A DNA stretch of 64,000 bases from an uncultured Oscillospiraceae bacterium (GTDB lineage: Bacteria > Bacillota > Clostridia > Oscillospirales > Oscillospiraceae): positions 62,001 to 126,000 of the forward strand of contig CALWOA010000003.1 of assembly GCA_944382965.1 (NCBI GenBank), given 5' to 3'. Each line of letters begins with the position of its first letter. The first letter of the stretch is position 1. Below the pieces are notes generated by a model. That model worked only from the letters and a program-made list of their open reading frames with translations. It searched no databases and had not been told where the DNA came from. Both the position numbers and the translations under genes were made by a program. Of the stretch, positions 6,102-41,130 are shown piece by piece.

Positions 6102-7286
6102 TTAGGCTTCCAGATTGATGCCGGTCTCCTTGGAGAAGACATGGCAGACATGACCGGGGAATGCGAACTTGACAGTGGAGCCGTTGGACAGGGCAGCCAC
6201 TTCAGCGCCGGTCATATTCATGGTGGACACAACCATAACCACATCACGGCCCATGGAGGTGACGTGCAGGTGGACGGAGGAGCCCATCATTTCGGAAACG
6301 TCAACCTTGCCTTCGATGCCGGTGCCCAGCTCAATATGCTCAGGACGAACACCCAGAACCACATCCTGCTCAGCCACGTCATTCTTGGCCAGAGCAGCCT
6401 GCTTCTCCTCGCTCAGCTCAACAGTCAGGCAGTCCAGCTTCACAGCGTACTTGCCGTTGACCTTAACCAGCTTGGCGTTTTCGAACATGTTCATCTGGGG
6501 AGTGCCGATGAAGGTAGCAACGAACAGGTTGTAAGGATGGTTGAAGACCTCCTGAGGAGTGCCGATCTGCTGGATGAAGCCGTCCTTCATGATGACGATC
6601 CGGTCGCCCAGGGTCATAGCCTCAGTCTGGTCGTGGGTAACATAGATAAAGGTGGTGTTGATCCGTTCCCGCAGCTTGATGATCTCTGCACGCATCTGGT
6701 TACGCAGCTTGGCGTCCAGGTTGGACAGAGGTTCGTCCATCAGCATAACCTGAGGGGAACGAACGATAGCACGGCCGATGGCCACACGCTGACGCTGACC
6801 GCCGGACAGAGCCTTGGGCTTACGGCCCAGGTACTGGGTGATGTCCAGAATCTCCGCAGCCTGCTTGACAGCCTTGTCGATCTCATCCTTGGGGGTGTGA
6901 CGCAGCTTCAGAGCGAAAGCCATGTTTTCATAGACGGTCATGTGGGGGTACAGAGCGTAGTTCTGGAAGACCATGGCGATGTCGCGGTCCTTAGGAGCCA
7001 CGTCATTCACCAGACGGTCGCCGATGTACAGTTCGCCTTCGGAAATTTCTTCCAGGCCGGCGATCATACGCAGAGTGGTGGACTTACCGCAGCCGGAGGG
7101 GCCGACCAGGACGATGAATTCCTTGTCCGCGATCTCCAGGTTGAACTCCTGCACAGCCACGACACCCTTGTCCGTGATCTGCAGGTTGGTCTTCTTCTCG
7201 GGCTCGCCCTTCTTTTTCTTCTTCTTTGCGTCGTCGCCGCTGTAGGGGTAGATCTTCTTTACGTTCTTCAGGGTCAAACTTGCCAT
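6102..7286 (-). CDS. ugpC: Carbohydrate ABC transporter ATPase (MsmK/UgpC/MalK type)
   Basis: About 394 residues from the conserved start MASLTLKNVKK. Walker A GPSGCGKST, Q-loop VFQNYALYPHM, signature LSGGQRQRVAIGRA, Walker B MLMDEPLSNLDAKLR and H-loop THDQTEAM are intact, followed by the C-terminal OB-like regulatory domain. Such ATPases are often shared by several sugar importers, and this one stands alone without permease or binding-protein genes. Odd: a lysine-rich insert (GDDAKKKKKKGEPEKK) of roughly 25 residues lies between the first strand and the Walker A motif. No Shine-Dalgarno sequence precedes ATG 7286; two hairpins do. Confidence 0.92.
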   Translation of the reverse strand: MASLTLKNVKKIYPYSGDDAKKKKKKGEPEKKTNLQITDKGVVAVQEFNLEIADKEFIVLVGPSGCGKSTTLRMIAGLEEISEGELYIGDRLVNDVAPKDRDIAMVFQNYALYPHMTVYENMAFALKLRHTPKDEIDKAVKQAAEILDITQYLGRKPKALSGGQRQRVAIGRAIVRSPQVMLMDEPLSNLDAKLRNQMRAEIIKLRERINTTFIYVTHDQTEAMTLGDRIVIMKDGFIQQIGTPQEVFNHPYNLFVATFIGTPQMNMFENAKLVKVNGKYAVKLDCLTVELSEEKQAALAKNDVAEQDVVLGVRPEHIELGTGIEGKVDVSEMMGSSVHLHVTSMGRDVVMVVSTMNMTGAEVAALSNGSTVKFAFPGHVCHVFSKETGINLEA

Positions 7287-7301
7287 ACTTTTTTGACTCA
7301 G

Positions 7302-7356
7302 AACACACCGAGCCTTTCGCGTGTGCTCTCGCATACCCGGAAAGCAAACTTCCGGG
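7302..7356 (-). promoter_or_regulatory. Hairpins in the leader just before the ABC ATPase start
   Basis: Two stem-loops in the roughly 180-nt leader. The distal one is CCCGGAA / TTCCGGG (loop of 7). The proximal one pairs GAGCACAC with GTGTGTTC (8 bp with one G-T) and ends about 15 nt before the ATG. The only good ribosome site, AAGGAGG, lies more than 100 nt upstream at about 7408-7414. No riboswitch class recognised. Confidence 0.4.
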
Positions 7357-7471
7357 AGCATTACGACAGGTCTCCACACTGCCGCACCGTGAGTCAGACG
7401 GATGTTTCCTCCTTAAATTTAGCAGACTGGGCCTATTTCGTGGAGTAGACGCAATCCACCGGGATAGCAAC

Positions 7472-9072: not shown

Positions 9073-9137
9073 TTATTTGTCGCACACGGGTTTTTCCCGT
9101 GGCAAGGGGAGAATTTTACATGTTAGGAGAGGATCGT

Positions 9138-9917
9138 ATGGAACACACAACAACCGTATTTATCGCGGACAGTGCGGAGGACTTTTGTTCCGGTCTTACA
9201 GCCGCACTGCAGCGTGCCGATGGGTTTCAGGTAGTGGGAACCGCCAACGACGGGGAATTGGCGATTCGCATGATTGAAGAGCAGAAACCGGATGTACTGG
9301 TACTGGATCTGATGCTTGCCAAGCAGGATGGCATCAGCGTACTCAAGAGCATCGCCGGCATGGACCGCAAACCCATCACACTGGCTACCTCCGCATTCGT
9401 CACGGGATATGTATCTTCGGCGGCAGCCAATCTGGGCGTTCGGTATCTGATGCTGAAACCTTGCGATATGACCGCTCTGGTAGAACGGCTGGAGGAGATC
9501 CGCGGTGGGGAGAGCCTGCGGTATCCGGAAAAGCGCCGGGCAGACAAAACCAGCATTGAATCCATGGTCACGGGAATCATCCACGAAATCGGCGTTCCCG
9601 CCCACATAAAAGGCTATCAGTATCTGCGCGAAGCCATTATCATTGCCGTCAACGACATGGATGTAATCAACGCCATCACCAAGGTACTCTATCCACAGGT
9701 GGCCAAGACCTTCCAGACCACCCCCAGCCGGGTAGAGCGGGCCATCCGCCACGCCATTGAGGTAGCCTGGGACCGGGGCGACCTGGACACGCTGCAGCGT
9801 TTCTTCGGCTACACCGTATCCAATACCAAGGGAAAACCCACCAATTCCGAATTCATTGCCCTGATTGCGGACAAGCTCCAGCTGCAGCTGAAAAGCGCAG
9901 AGGCAGCCCAGTTTTAG
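9138..9917 (+). CDS. spo0A: Sporulation master regulator Spo0A
   Basis: 259 residues. The N-terminal receiver carries the phosphorylated Asp57 (LVLDLML) and the switch lysine (MLKPCD). The C-terminal DNA-binding domain is nearly invariant for Spo0[37 protein letters not shown]. It controls entry into sporulation in Firmicutes. Start ATG 9138 is chosen because AGGAGAGG precedes it; the frame extends upstream without a ribosome site. Odd: the acidic pocket reads Asp11-Ser12 rather than the usual Asp-Asp. spoIVB, the usual upstream neighbour, is absent, and the gene has its own promoter and terminator. Confidence 0.97.
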
Positions 9918-9928
9918 ATATACAAAGA

Positions 9929-9969
9929 TACACCCGGTTGATGAAGACGATCAACCGGGTGTATTTTTT
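9929..9969 (+). terminator. Terminator of spo0A
   Basis: 13-bp perfect stem ACACCCGGTTGAT / ATCAACCGGGTGT (9930-9942, 9950-9962) followed by ATTTTTT. A near copy of this stem recurs at 10026-10056. Confidence 0.92.
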
Positions 9970-9977
9970 GGATTTTA

Positions 9978-10056
9978 TTTGCCGGCGCAGGCGGCAAACT
10001 CTGCGAGGCTTTTTTGATAAGCTGACTCCCGGTTGATAGAAGCAATCAACCGGGAG
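9978..10056 (+). repeat. Intergenic repeat, copy A, ending in a second copy of the spo0A terminator stem
   Basis: Shared core: a TTTGCCG / CGGCAAA hairpin (9978-9998), CTCTGCGAGGC, a T-run, then CTGA. Directly after it (10026-10056) is CTCCCGGTTGAT...ATCAACCGGGAG, a near duplicate of the spo0A terminator stem with a different loop and outer pairs. The same core, in the same relation to a duplicated terminator hairpin, is found at 12817-12888. No coding sequence. Confidence 0.75.
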
Positions 10057-10072
10057 TTCCTGTTTGTTTGAA

Positions 10073-12142
10073 TTAAAAATCGCTGGCGTTCAGATAGGTC
10101 TGCCGACGCAGCAGGGCTTTGGCACACTTGTGACAGGTATAATCCTGTGTAAGCATCTGCGGGGCAATTTTCTCCGGCTCGCCGCAGCGGGCGCAGACGG
10201 GAATATTGGTAATCTTATACTCGAAAATCCAGTATCCGGAACCGGCACTGGTGATGCTCTCCCAGGTATGGCGATCCTGCTTATGGGAGGCGATGCGGCC
10301 GTAGTTATAGATATTGGAGTCGCGAACCTGGATGGTTCCGTCATCATTTACTTTTTCCAGAACGATGTAATGTCCGCCCTTGGTCCAATACCCTTTGTGC
10401 TGAATGGAAATGACGATATGCCCTTCATCCAGCGCTTGTTTCGCCACTGTAGTCTCATAGGTTTTTTCTCTTAGGTAGAAACCCAGTACCGGCGGTTCAT
10501 TGGTGAATATCATGCCATCGGTTCCGTTGCGGAAGCTGTAGTTGCCATAGCGGGCACACATTTCCGGGGGCGTCCATTCTTCATCTGCCAGATAGCTCGC
10601 CAGCATAGCCATGGAGGTAATGCCGCAGCCGTTGGTAGCAAGCTTGAACCCGCCGAACATGGTTCCGGCGTAGTCCTGCTGCAAATACAGCGGCACTTCC
10701 GGGAATCGCTCATGGGCTACGTCCGGGTACAGCACATCTCCGGTGCCCACGCTTCCTTCCGCCTCGGGCAGCACAATGGCACTGTAATCGACATCCATGG
10801 GATGGTTTTCCCGAGCTCCCGATAGAATCTCGTTTTGCATCTGGCTTTTCAAGTCCTGCTCCGCCTGGGCGTACCAAATGTCGGTGCTGCCGGTAAAGTA
10901 CAGGATATGGCAGCCGTACTCCGTGCGGATAATGGTGGTATCTCCCGGCTGACGCTCCGGGTCAAAGCACCAGCTGTCCAATTCCGGGATCAGCTGTCCC
11001 TGACGCAGCTGGTGATATGCACCGCCGTCCAGGGTGGTGCCGGTGTCCTGGGAATTCTTATTGGCCATTTCCGCGAAAGTGGCTTCCGTTCCCTTGGTTT
11101 TATTTTTCCAGTTGGTCAAAAGCTCCTCGGCTTTGGTCTGGCATGCCTGCCAAGCTTCCTCAGAGCAGCTTACCTTGCCGTCGGAAGCAATGGTCACCGA
11201 CTGGGCAGGCTGGGTAGAATCCGTAGCAGCAGAAGTGGTTTGCGCTGTCTGCGCTTCCGGCTCCTGACCCGGCACCACCAAAACATGGTGGATGTCCACA
11301 TATTTTCCGCTGTCTCTGGTAATTCCCTGGGCCTGGTAGTCGCTTTCCTGCTGGGCAAAGTAGCTTTCCACTTCCTCCTGGGTAGGGGCAAGATCATAGC
11401 ACAGGGAAGTCATGTACATGTAACCATAGTTATACAGCCAGGCAAAGTCCTGCACATCCTGCACTGTGGTGCCGAAAGCCTTTTGGGCCATCTCTTCCGC
11501 ACTGGCATACCCCTTCTCCTGGGCCAGGGTTTCCAGAGTCTGAGGAAGATTGTCCAGGTACTCCTGGTGCATGGTATTGAGCTGGAATGTATCGCTGTAG
11601 CCATAAAGGAATTTGGTTGCCGGGATATCCGTGAGGTAAATCTCATAGTTCTTCAGATTGGGCTTATAAGCCTCTTCCTTGGGCAGGCCCTTTTCCTCTG
11701 CCTCCATAGCCATTGCCTGGGCAGTATACCAGGAATTGATGGCCCGTTTCAGGAAATACTGCTGCCAGCTGGCTACGCTGGAATCCACCGTGCAGACCTG
11801 GGTATCCAGCGGTGCATCAAAATCCGGCGCCTGTTCCCGATTTTCGCTGCGGTACTGGGCAACCTCTGCCCAGTAATAGGCCCCCAGCAAACCGTTGGTC
11901 AGCTGTTTCTCTCCTACGGTAGCCACTACCACATCTGCGCTTCCCTGTCCGGTGTAACTTCCCTTGCAGGTCACATCCTCAGGGTTTCCATCTGCGGGGG
12001 TGGTAGCCTCCTCAGAAAGCGCAGACTGAGACACCGGGTCATCCTGGTCGGCAGGCGCTGCCGTTTGCACATCCTGTTTCTTTCCGCAGCCCGACAATAC
12101 CAGCAGCAGCGCCAGCACCAGGGCAGCCCATCGCTTTGTCAT
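10073..12142 (-). CDS. Lipoprotein: parvulin-type foldase fused to a C39-like cysteine peptidase and zinc ribbon
   Basis: 689 residues. Residues 1-19 form a lipoprotein signal (LVLSGC, lipid on Cys19). Residues about 70-270 resemble the helical region of SurA/PrsA. About 280-420 look like a PpiC parvulin peptidyl-prolyl isomerase domain (DIHHVLVVPG, FAEMANKNSQD, GGAYHQLRQGQLIPELDSW, TEYGCHILYFTG). About 478-640 match a C39-like (peptidase_C39_2) domain with NGCGITSMA (Cys506), GGHYIVL (His591) and VRDSN (Asp608). The tail carries C650-x2-C653 and C670-x2-C673, a zinc-ribbon pattern. The fusion is unusual; substrate unknown. Start ATG 12142 follows AAGGAAG. Likely surface exposed; gene stands alone. 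Confidence 0.85.
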   Translation of the reverse strand: MTKRWAALVLALLLVLSGCGKKQDVQTAAPADQDDPVSQSALSEEATTPADGNPEDVTCKGSYTGQGSADVVVATVGEKQLTNGLLGAYYWAEVAQYRSENREQAPDFDAPLDTQVCTVDSSVASWQQYFLKRAINSWYTAQAMAMEAEEKGLPKEEAYKPNLKNYEIYLTDIPATKFLYGYSDTFQLNTMHQEYLDNLPQTLETLAQEKGYASAEEMAQKAFGTTVQDVQDFAWLYNYGYMYMTSLCYDLAPTQEEVESYFAQQESDYQAQGITRDSGKYVDIHHVLVVPGQEPEAQTAQTTSAATDSTQPAQSVTIASDGKVSCSEEAWQACQTKAEELLTNWKNKTKGTEATFAEMANKNSQDTGTTLDGGAYHQLRQGQLIPELDSWCFDPERQPGDTTIIRTEYGCHILYFTGSTDIWYAQAEQDLKSQMQNEILSGARENHPMDVDYSAIVLPEAEGSVGTGDVLYPDVAHERFPEVPLYLQQDYAGTMFGGFKLATNGCGITSMAMLASYLADEEWTPPEMCARYGNYSFRNGTDGMIFTNEPPVLGFYLREKTYETTVAKQALDEGHIVISIQHKGYWTKGGHYIVLEKVNDDGTIQVRDSNIYNYGRIASHKQDRHTWESITSAGSGYWIFEYKITNIPVCARCGEPEKIAPQMLTQDYTCHKCAKALLRRQTYLNASDF

Positions 12143-12179
12143 ACCATGGTCTTCCTTTTCGTAATTGTATATTTTGTTT

Positions 12180-12208
12180 AGTTTACCATATTATCCCGGT
12201 TTTTTCAA
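12180..12208 (-). promoter_or_regulatory. Promoter of the foldase/peptidase lipoprotein
   Basis: Minus strand TTGAAA (12208-12203), 17 bp, TAAACT (12185-12180), about 40 bp before the start. Confidence 0.5.
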
Positions 12209-12273
12209 GACTTGCGCCAGGGGTGTCTTCTTAAGATTCCATAAAGTCCACGCCTTTTTTCCCATTTCCCTGC

Positions 12274-12302
12274 TTGCAATTCCCGAACATCTGGGGTATA
12301 AT
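12274..12302 (+). promoter_or_regulatory. SigA promoter of the DUF1292 gene
   Basis: TTGCAA (12274-12279), 17-bp spacer, TATAAT (12297-12302). Confidence 0.7.
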
Positions 12303-12335
12303 CCCAATGAAATTACCAAATACAGGAGGAACCCC

Positions 12336-12626
12336 ATGGAAAACGAAAATCAGCTTCCTGAGGAAGAAGTCAGCATTCTGACCCTCACCGACGAAAACGG
12401 TCAGGATACCAATTTTGAATACCTGGACTGCATGACCTACCAGGATAAGGAATACCTGATCCTGATGCCCACCGAGGACGAGTCCGGCGAGATCGTCATT
12501 CTGGAAGTAGAGCCCATTGACGAAGAGAACGAAAACTACCTGGCTGTGGAGGACGAAGCCATTCTGGATGCCGTCTACGGTCTGTTCAAGGAAAAGTACA
12601 AAGATGTGCTGACCTTCGAGGAATAA
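12336..12626 (+). CDS. DUF1292 family small acidic protein
   Basis: 96 residues, strongly acidic, with the DUF1292 pattern: ILTLTDENGQDTNFEYLDCMTYQDKEYLILMP, then EIVILEVEP and the C-terminal YGLFKEKYKDVL. The family is common in Firmicutes and its function is not established. The start ATG 12336 follows a perfect AGGAGG at 7 bases; a longer upstream frame lacks a ribosome site. It has its own promoter and is followed by a long intergenic hairpin array. Cytoplasmic, no membrane segment. Confidence 0.85.
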   Translation: MENENQLPEEEVSILTLTDENGQDTNFEYLDCMTYQDKEYLILMPTEDESGEIVILEVEPIDEENENYLAVEDEAILDAVYGLFKEKYKDVLTFEE

Positions 12627-12632
12627 GCATAT

Positions 12633-12888
12633 ATCCCCCGGAACGCTGTTCCGGGGGATTAAAACTGTCGGAAAAGCCCATAGGGCTTTTCCGACAACTA
12701 AAAGCAGTCTGCTGCGCGCATAATTTGTCCCCCGATGGGGGACAAATTCCACACTTGCAGTCTGAGAAGTGTTTTCTGCCAGGTACATGCCCCGGCAGAA
12801 AACGGTTTTAACTCTATTTGCCGCTGTAGCGGCAAACTCTGCGAGGCTTTTTGACACACTGATTCCCCGGAACGCTGTTCCGGGGAAT
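12633..12888 (+). repeat. Array of six perfect hairpins between DUF1292 and cysK (repeat copy B)
   Basis: Six stem-loops in 256 bp. HP1 12633-12659 (12 bp, triloop GCT). HP2 12666-12696 (14 bp, loop ATA). HP3 12722-12748 (12 bp, loop GAT). HP4 12771-12803 (10 bp, larger loop). HP5 12817-12836 (TTTGCCGC / GCGGCAAA). HP6 12862-12888 (12 bp, triloop GCT). HP1 and HP6 share an identical 21-nt core. The segment from HP5 to HP6 is the core also present at 9978-10025. No open frame of note. Confidence 0.85.
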
Positions 12889-12892
12889 TGTT

Positions 12893-13825
12893 TTATTGCT
12901 GATACATAGGGGTGGTCAGATACCGCTCGCCGGAGTCCGGCAGCAGCACCACAATGGTCTTGCCCCGGTTTTCCTCCCGCTGGGCCAATGTAAACGCCGC
13001 GTGCAGAGCCGCACCGCCGGAAATGCCCGTAAGAATTCCTTCTTCCCTGCCCAGCTGACGGCCTGTCTGGTAGGCGTCCTCTGTGGCAACGGGGATCACT
13101 TCATCCACAACGGTTCTGTCCAGAATCTCCGGTACAAATCCGGCACCGATGCCCTGGATGCCGTGGGGGCCACTGCGGCCCTGGGTCAGGACCGGGGAAT
13201 CCGCCGGTTCCACACCGATGATTTTCACATTGGGATTTTGTTCTTTCAGGTAGCGTCCCACCCCGGTGATGGTGCCGCCGGTGCCGATGCCCGCCACAAA
13301 CAGGTCCACCTTTCCGTCAGTATCCTCCCAGATTTCCGGGCCGGTGGTGCGGTAGTGGGCGTCCGGGTTGGCCGGGTTGACAAACTGCCCCGCCAGGAAG
13401 CTGCCGGGCGTTTCCCTTGCCAGTTCCTCGGCCTTGGCAATGGCGCCAGACATGCCCAGCTTGCCGGGAGTCAGCACCAGCTCCGCGCCGTAGGCCTTCA
13501 TCAGCAGCCGACGCTCCATGCTCATGGTATCGGGCATGACGATGATGCACCGATACCCCCGGGCCGCCGCCACACTGCACAGGCCAATGCCGGTATTGCC
13601 GGAGGTAGGCTCAATAATCACGCTGCCCTCTTTCAGCACACCCCGGCGCTGGGCATCGTCAATCATGGACAGGGCCACCCGGTCTTTGGCGGAACCGGCA
13701 GGGTTCTTCCCTTCCAGTTTTGCCAGAACGGTAGCCCGGAGGTTTCTATTTTTTTCCATATTCCCCAGATGCAGCAGCGGGGTTCTGCCGATGAGCTGGG
13801 ATGCGGACTGGTAAATATTTGCCAT
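12893..13825 (-). CDS. cysK: Cysteine synthase A (O-acetylserine sulfhydrylase)
   Basis: 310 residues of the fold-type II pyridoxal-phosphate family. It makes cysteine from O-acetylserine and sulfide. Seen: NPAGSAKDRVALSMI with the PLP lysine, the substrate loop PTSGNTGIGL, the glycine loop GIGTGGTITGVGRYL, and ISGGAALHAA near the C-terminus. Start ATG 13825 follows GGGAGGATT; the frame extends upstream past the promoter and is not used. It is transcribed divergently from cysE, which makes its substrate, from a shared regulatory region. Confidence 0.95.
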   Translation of the reverse strand: MANIYQSASQLIGRTPLLHLGNMEKNRNLRATVLAKLEGKNPAGSAKDRVALSMIDDAQRRGVLKEGSVIIEPTSGNTGIGLCSVAAARGYRCIIVMPDTMSMERRLLMKAYGAELVLTPGKLGMSGAIAKAEELARETPGSFLAGQFVNPANPDAHYRTTGPEIWEDTDGKVDLFVAGIGTGGTITGVGRYLKEQNPNVKIIGVEPADSPVLTQGRSGPHGIQGIGAGFVPEILDRTVVDEVIPVATEDAYQTGRQLGREEGILTGISGGAALHAAFTLAQREENRGKTIVVLLPDSGERYLTTPMYQQ

Positions 13826-13861
13826 AACAAATCCTCCCTGATTCAGCGTTTTCTTAGTGGG

Positions 13862-41010: not shown

Positions 41011-41092
41011 AGTTTCTACAACCCCTTATGACTGACGGATCAGTGGAGCACCACACGGAGTAAGGGCGTTTCAATAGCCGACCGTCTGGGCA
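41011..41092 (+). ncRNA. ZTP (pfl) riboswitch controlling the purine operon
   Basis: P1 stem CCCTTA / TAAGGG (41023-41028, 41061-41066) encloses TGACTGACGG, an inner stem GTGG / CCAC, and CGGAG; after a short linker comes GCCGACCGTCTGGGCA, the conserved CCGnCTGGGC element of ZTP riboswitches that forms the pseudoknot. The 3' element overlaps the 5' arm of a terminator (41088-41130). ZTP accumulates when 10-formyl-tetrahydrofolate is short, and the operon needs that cofactor at PurN and the AICAR transformylase, so the logic fits. Identified by eye. Confidence 0.88.
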
Positions 41093-41130
41093 CACTTTCC
41101 CTTCTTTTTGGGACAAGTGCGCCCTTTTTT
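41088..41130 (+). terminator. Expression platform terminator of the ZTP riboswitch
   Basis: GGGCACACTTTCCC (41088-41101) pairs with GGGACAAGTGCGCCC (41110-41124), with one mismatch and one bulge, followed by six Ts. The first GGGC is also the riboswitch pseudoknot strand, so ligand binding blocks termination. Confidence 0.88.

Follow-up and report, generated by a model that had tools for sequence, protein, structure and literature searches.

What calls for explanation in this 64,000-nucleotide (nt) stretch of an uncultured Oscillospiraceae genome (contig CALWOA010000003.1, positions 62,001 to 126,000; hereafter the window) is that one short sequence lies, at two intergenic places, between two copies of whichever terminator hairpin belongs to the local gene. 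The first place follows spo0A (locus 1) and the second separates a DUF1292 gene from cysK (locus 2). An initial annotation, made from the letters of the window, had proposed a non-autonomous element that targets and duplicates intrinsic terminators, or else template switching at terminator hairpins. The analysis described here points, with a probability of about 0.86, to a miniature inverted-repeat transposable element (MITE) of gut bacteria that would be moved by a DDE transposase of the IS1182 family and would duplicate entire terminator stem-loops as its target sites.

The repeated element and its flanking hairpins

Both occurrences of the annotated core were recovered, at 9978-10025 and 12817-12862. 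The 21-mer GGCAAACTCTGCGAGGCTTTT from this core was found twice in the window at up to three mismatches and in none of 100 shuffles, and a 22-mer of the core, at the same tolerance, occurred 7 times in the window's own 2.63-Mb genome and 0 times as a reversed control. The core is real but is not the whole element: it makes up the right end of an element of 201 nt that is complete at locus 2 (copy 2), and of the CTGA with which it was said to end, CTG belongs to the element and the final A to the duplicated flank. The hairpins annotated between HP1 and HP6, the outer pair at locus 2, are internal helices of this element. Copy 1 (locus L082) gave a covariance model match with an E value of 7.9e-11 and aligned locally to the last ~60 nt of copy 2. 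The element is about 200 nt long, non-autonomous, without a transposase gene and present in many copies, and is thus a MITE. Its left end is (C)AGnCTGTCGAAAAACCCC and its right end, on the other strand, is CAGnnTGTC(A/G)AAAA; the terminal inverted repeats, CAGnnTGTC(G/A)AAAA, are imperfect, with at least 9 of 14 positions agreeing in 68 of 89 copies versus 0.4% of shuffles.

The hairpins flanking both copies were confirmed (Table 1), as was the absence of sequence relationship between the pair at locus 1 and that at locus 2. The members of a pair are not fully identical, however: close to the foot of the stem a single base pair has been exchanged in both arms, from A-T to T-A at locus 1 and from C-G to T-A at locus 2, and the two loops at locus 1 also differ.

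Two sets of copies were used to compare flanks. The first combined loci from core and covariance model searches with 60 places picked among the ~150 best model matches; its 149 profile matches included 117 of full length, 91 of them unique, which gave 89 distinct loci after L127 and L068 were dropped. Left and right flanks agreed better than any of 441 mismatched pairs at 69 of these 89 loci. In the 69 matched copies the duplicate is 16-34 nt long; there is no gap between it and the element in 54 copies on the left side and in 50 on the right side. The median minimum free energy of the duplicates is -19.8 kcal/mol versus -5.4 kcal/mol for shuffles, and a single stem-loop spans at least 80% of the duplicate in 67 of 69 (36% of shuffles). 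An earlier scorer of hairpins drew its background from the very loci under study and proved too strict (33/69 right and 33/69 left hairpins passed); it was replaced by this folding against shuffles, and its T-run orientation result (11 versus 9, n 25) was not used. The second set comprised 71 matches, 25 of them partial and 46 full with flanks, reduced to 40 by dropping first-set loci and repeats; flanks matched in 35 of these 40 copies, some of which come from the same species, with a maximum control score of 11 in 156 pairs.

Element-free sites were sought in relatives, and one, G020, could be aligned, the downstream stretch being too divergent by eye elsewhere (28 spo0A loci and 9 locus-2 loci). 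At both window sites G020, whose Spo0A is 98% identical, lacks the element and has a single hairpin. Its stem after spo0A, ACTCCCGGTTGAT/ATCAACCGGGAGT, is that of the right window copy, the left copy being off by the one swapped pair. Between the DUF1292 gene and cysK, with both flanks aligned, G020 has one hairpin with a larger loop; this hairpin carries the C-G pair of the left copy, and therefore it is the right copy that changed at locus 2. Each swap is compensated on the other arm, as would be expected from selection for pairing or from palindrome correction.

Genes around the copies were called by codon usage trained on nine window genes, which gave 86 usable loci. Confident genes were present on both sides at 81 of them, and 80 of these 81 copies lie at a gene 3' end: 41 sites are convergent, 29 tandem in the direction of the element, 10 tandem against it and 1 divergent. 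A stop codon was found at most 28 nt from the hairpin at 61 of 70 left and 44 of 51 right gene ends. The tandem orientation bias of 29 to 10 (P = 0.003) is 21 to 7 among matched copies (P = 0.013). A crude gene-end count (both sides 65, left only 17, right only 4, none 2, short 1) and a crude strand count (left/right: -/- 24, -/+ 24, +/+ 21, +/- 16, -/? 1, short 3) were set aside because wrong-strand open frames are long; the strand count would make many sites divergent, at odds with the codon-usage result. The annotated proposal of an element that targets and duplicates intrinsic terminators is borne out by the matched flanks of both sets, the single hairpins of G020 and the position of the copies at gene 3' ends.

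Covariance model R1, built from 20 copies and applied at E <= 0.001, matched in 25 of 61 genomes of the genus (in some weakly) and in none of the remaining 36; the counts per genome are not copy numbers because at most 40 candidates per genome were scored and antisense echoes of hairpins are included. The window's own genome has 8 real copies on their own strand (6 full, 1 partial and window copy 1), and its remaining listed R1 rows are antisense echoes or weak. About 30 cores occur in genome G002, and core variants are largely genome-specific, which suggests separate bursts in different genomes. A pattern scan of named genomes returned 65 stretches, from Candidatus Faecousia, Flavonifractor sp. 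An10, Pseudoflavonifractor sp. 524-17 and MSJ-30, Candidatus Pelethomonas, Dysosmobacter, Oscillibacter and Butyricicoccus, among others. Distant forms with a common right end are found in another family of the same order (G030), and one full copy with matched flanks lies on a viral-collection contig (IMGVR_UViG_3300001525_000690, L293).

IS1182-type transposons and rival accounts

Transposases matching PF13751 were found in 10 of 31 genus genomes scanned. One of them, in G022, belongs to a 1520-bp insertion sequence (IS; L037) that has MITE-like ends and an identical 25-nt hairpin on each side; another (L036), in the MITE-rich G002, has a duplicated hairpin with 19 identical nt. At the thresholds used, IS1182 relatives were present in 12 of 245 genomes of the order and 28 of 398 of the phylum. 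These relatives, with L036 and L037, make up a set of 50 IS loci. Ends located by inverted repeat alone were misplaced where hairpin arms flank both sides and were redone with the end motif, which placed both ends at 34 loci. A whole hairpin of 20-35 nt is duplicated at 23 of these 34 (22 distinct places in 16 genomes). One IS has six equal-scoring copies in G258: five duplicate a hairpin, a different one each time, and the sixth lies between two unlike hairpins. The IS ends are CAGnnTGTC(G/A)AAAA-like, as in the MITE, or CAGnnTGT(A/C)GACAAA-like. NF033551 (IS1182 family) was above cutoff in four of five transposases scanned, and PF13751 and DUF772 are likewise present in all four; the partial copy of the window's own genome is the fifth. 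That single partial IS1182 gene lies near a contig end, and its left end CAGATTGTCGAAAAAGTCC (CAGATTGTCGAAAAAGTCCAGCGAAAGCTGGGCTTTTTCG) abuts a hairpin in the same layout as the left end of the MITE. Direct repeats listed by ISfinder for the IS1182 family reportedly range from 0 to 60 bp.

Several observations were made beside this survey. IS1182 transposases also include a GGGTCTGTTGCCAAA-ended group. The IS1182-like element L316 (G684), with ends GGGTCTGTTGACAAA, sits between palindrome arms AAATTCCCAAACGT and ACGTTTGGGAATTT, a splitting mode unlike that of the CAG-ended group. Plasmid records matching an IS1182 transposase numbered 334, of which 270 were from Enterococcus. Spaced copies of CGCACCCCGCAAGGGGTGCGTGGGTTGAAAT, which by eye resemble a CRISPR array, lie near a PF13751 match at about 601-1450 of L041.

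The matched whole-hairpin flanks, the empty sites and the IS1182 duplications together lead to the reading of the paired hairpins as target-site duplications of entire stem-loops. The ends are IS1182-like, the stem-loop targets have many sequences, and the whole stem-loop is duplicated whatever its length. In the proposed mechanism the transposase would recognise the stem-loop as a cruciform or single-stranded hairpin, and we infer hairpin extrusion at the time of attack. On each strand, one of the two 3' ends of the element would be joined at the hairpin's 5' foot, and gap repair would thereby copy the whole stem-loop to both sides.

A number of results weigh against this reading. Copies with non-matching hairpins, which the initial annotation had itself named as contrary evidence, do occur beside the matching majority: flanks are unmatched in 20 of 89 copies of the first set and in 5 of 40 of the second, and the first set favoured best-scoring copies and so leans to well-preserved copies and copy-rich genomes. 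Several unmatched copies have two different hairpins (e.g. L011, L136, L139 and L057), some of the 20 have a hairpin on one side only, and L028, L110 and L111 show little or no duplication, that at L028 and L111 being short and not a hairpin. Among 130 loci, the two hairpin copies agree directly in 87, better in reverse complement in 11 and equally well in 6, and they are without similarity in 26; the 11 of 104 comparable pairs, about five of them clear (e.g. L054, L240 and L292), are not predicted by the simple model. Ten other PF13751 loci of the 31 genus genomes lack such a duplication. Whole-hairpin duplication is likewise missing at 11 of the 34 IS loci, which comprise four with differing hairpins (one with a doubtful end), six with neither (two at contig ends) and one split palindrome (L316). 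Both ends were not found by end motif at 16 of the 50 IS loci, including L036 and L307, where a duplication was seen otherwise, and L219, where two different hairpins were. No complete transposase was found in the draft genome of the window, and PF13751 does not track the MITE, being present in 5 of 12 genomes with the MITE and 5 of 19 without it (31 genus genomes, incomplete drafts).

Recombination between copies, or decay, could explain the unmatched copies. Elements with two different hairpins (IS loci L216, L217 and L223; MITE loci L011, L136, L139 and L057) may reflect recombination or joining to two neighbouring hairpins; exact 22-mers retrieved no reciprocal recombinants among the fetched loci. 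At L107, AAATAAATTT stands on both sides within arms GCATAAAA and TTTTATGC, by eye as if the loop alone had been duplicated. At L054, L159, L240 and L292 the loop of the right copy is in reverse complement with the stem unchanged, a hairpin inversion at or after insertion.

The alternative that survives best touches the recognition step only: a property of terminator sequence, such as A-tract/T-tract borders or composition, would be chosen instead of an extruded hairpin, and cuts at A/T borders would set the duplication length. This version is possible though the less probable of the two. The right copy starts with A in 47 of 69 matched copies, the left flank ends with T in 55 of 69, and the tandem orientation bias also fits; against these stand the 22 of 69 duplicates that do not start with A, the stem-loop that spans the 16-34 nt duplicate in 67 of 69, and the related IS1272, reported in the accessible text of PMC4923244 to target stem-loops without a primary-sequence consensus.

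Template switching at terminator hairpins during replication, trapping a common filler without a transposase, is very improbable as the origin of the pairs. Loop inversions in some pairs and the compensated base-pair swaps at both window loci are what quasi-palindrome correction would give, and palindromes provoke template switching. Against this route stand the conserved ends of a family of ~200 nt that is found at unrelated loci, and duplicates that mostly abut the element exactly. The annotation's suggestion of it is unsupported: the ends of the MITE are inverted repeats, and IS1182 transposons whose ends are identical or similar to them produce this duplication too. The paired hairpins can be accounted for without template switching.

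A comparably slight chance attaches to two pre-existing terminators of convergent genes with the element merely between them. The 41 convergent sites among 81 agree with this, as do the copies whose two hairpins differ, of which L011, L136 and L139 lie between convergent genes, whereas hairpins match at 69 of 89 loci, G020 has a single hairpin at both window sites, and, where confident genes flank a matched site, the arrangement is tandem instead of convergent in 28 of 63 cases.

Group IIC introns and repetitive extragenic palindromic (REP) systems prefer hairpins or terminators, but homing by the chemistry of a group IIC intron or of a REP-associated tyrosine transposase (RAYT), the latter raised in the initial annotation, is the least probable account: HUH transposases and group II introns are not known to leave a long duplication such as that present here, no Rfam family (introns included) covers the window copies, the MITE is too short for a reverse transcriptase gene, the sole Y1_Tnp match of the window's own genome (G000) has two stops inside, and the inverted-repeat ends are held in common with the DDE insertion sequences found.

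Transcription, internal structure and features of the window

In the 69 matched copies duplication of the stem mostly leaves out the T-tract. Counted over the 8 nt that follow the stem, the + strand has 2.7 T for the left copy versus 4.9 for the right (higher on the right in 63 of 69, lower in 1 of 69), and on the - strand 4.1 T on the outward side versus 2.5 (higher in 50, lower in 9). Since T-tracts are weaker at the inner hairpins, the predicted position of the MITE is inside 3' untranslated regions (UTRs), with transcripts running past the inner, element-facing hairpin and through the element, to stop at the outer hairpin, which keeps its T-tract. Window copy 1 appears later to have lost its left ~140 nt, a deletion that brought ATTTTTT behind its left hairpin and would restore that terminator.

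The internal helices were assessed in 76 distinct aligned copies, in which 97.2% of cells pair. Changes on both sides occur in 21 of 45 pairs (shuffled mean 9.9, slid controls at most 11) and the covariation score is 0.190 versus 0.082 shuffled and at most 0.055 slid, values favoured by an alignment fitted to the structure and by the fact that related sequences can beat shuffles. Those pairs that are mostly Watson-Crick contain 57 G-U cells versus 18 A-C cells, 22 of the 57 coming from two pairs of one weak helix. This G-U excess leans towards an RNA read in the sense of the element, the structure itself coming from an RNA folding program. It is a tentative and rather doubtful further idea that the MITE is a mobile structured 3'-UTR RNA, in which cutting at the hairpin feet would leave T-tracts outside, the terminators of the neighbours would end the transcript, and the multi-helix structure would be selected as RNA. 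If true, the element would be expressed, in the 3' UTRs of one or two genes, through transposon target chemistry and not through promoter capture. A search of Rfam gave no family over the window copies at gathering scores, and three sub-gathering matches in six loci at E <= 1.

Table 1 Features at the two loci, in window coordinates
Feature	Positions	Strand	Remarks
spo0A, gene upstream at locus 1	9123..9917	+	TIGR02875 above cutoff
Left copy of spo0A terminator hairpin (putative target duplication, locus 1)	9930..9962	+	One base pair near foot unlike G020 empty site
T-run ATTTTTT directly behind left hairpin, locus 1	9963-9969		
MITE remnant, 62 nt (copy 1)	9963..10024	+	Left ~140 nt gone; ends GATAAGCTG
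Right copy of spo0A terminator hairpin	10025..10057	+	Stem identical to G020 single hairpin
Left copy of terminator hairpin between DUF1292 gene and cysK (putative target duplication, locus 2)	12633..12659	+	
Full-length MITE, 201 nt (copy 2)	12661..12861	+	Covariance model R1 match 221 bits, G000:C3:74661-74861
Left terminal inverted repeat AAAACTGTCGGAAAAG	12661..12676	+	Family consensus CAGnCTGTCGAAAAAC
Helix 1, TGTCGGAAAAGCCC/GGGCTTTTCCGACA	12666..12696	+	Overlaps left terminal repeat
Helix 3, AATTTGTCCCCC/GGGGGACAAATT	12722..12748	+	Covarying across genomes
Helix 4, GTTTTCTGCCAGG..CCCGGCAGAAAAC	12771..12803	+	
Right-end hairpin TTTGCCGC/GCGGCAAA	12817..12836	+	Core of the initial annotation
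Conserved CTCTGCGAGGC, T-run and right terminal inverted repeat	12837..12861	+	Reverse complement of repeat CAGTGTGTCAAAAAGC
Right copy of locus 2 terminator hairpin	12862..12888	+	
cysK, convergent gene at locus 2	12893..13828	-	TIGR01139 above cutoff; start codon chosen by eye

Elsewhere in the window, Rfam matched a malK-I RNA at 7281-7463 on the - strand (117 bits) and a ZMP/ZTP riboswitch at 41018-41098 on the + strand (53 bits). Several relatives (L165, L166, L168, L169 and L174-L176) carry another repeated module downstream of spo0A, with CCTATGAATACT-like and CAGGAGTATTTTT-like stretches by eye. Stand-alone copies of the Spo0A C-terminal DNA-binding domain were also seen, as short open frames that share 88-96% identity with its last ~84 residues; those at G059:C104:17577-17828, G045:C47:87072-87320 and G065:C33:24335-24586 lie about 8-11 kb from spo0A, and G067 and G057 have similar ones.

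Relation to known systems

REP elements and bacterial interspersed mosaic elements (BIMEs) moved with RAYT are, like the MITE, intergenic palindromic repeats near gene 3' ends; unlike it, they use HUH chemistry and are not known to duplicate their target. RUP, BOX and QMITE resemble it in being short, non-autonomous and repeated, with terminal inverted repeats and secondary structure, and differ in that the accessible text of PMC10969869 describes for them no terminator stem-loop target or target-length duplication. ISPse1 and ISCaa15 belong, like the transposons described above, to the IS1182 family and have terminal inverted repeats, whereas the direct repeats listed for them in the accessible parts of PMC3281130 and PMC3196728 are 4 bp long.

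The closest comparison is with IS1272 and TnSha1 of the IS1182 family in staphylococci, described here from the accessible portions of PMC4923244 and PMC5678879. Their targets are stem-loops, including confirmed terminators, without a sequence consensus (PMC4923244, PMC5678879), and both papers credit palindrome targeting by some IS1182 members to a review by Siguier and colleagues. Both elements delete stem-loops (PMC4923244), and for IS1272 removal of the target hairpin is described by Wan et al. 2017 (PMC5678879). In Fig. 13 of the latter paper, duplication of the whole stem-loop (pathway b) is drawn as a possible branch beside duplication of the loop only (pathway c). Whole-stem-loop target duplication by IS1182 elements, or by such a MITE, was not recognised in any report within the literature covered, which lay outside most subscription journals and ISfinder.

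With the whole target kept in two copies, more than 100 natural insertions record the position of the two strand cuts with respect to the hairpin, and a direct test of the rule that duplication length equals hairpin length becomes possible. The arrangement suggests a route by which an element may colonise terminators at low host cost, and it calls for caution, as a pair of terminators in a genome of this kind may have arisen by target duplication. With its conserved internal structure, for which transcription is predicted, the MITE is a candidate mobile 3'-UTR RNA. The elements described here share their transposase family and their stem-loop targets with IS1272 and TnSha1; as far as the accessible text goes, the detailed descriptions of stem-loop targeting in the IS1182 family concern IS1272, an element that destroys its target by deleting or replacing the stem-loop without duplication, whereas the present group, across the phylum, leaves two full copies.

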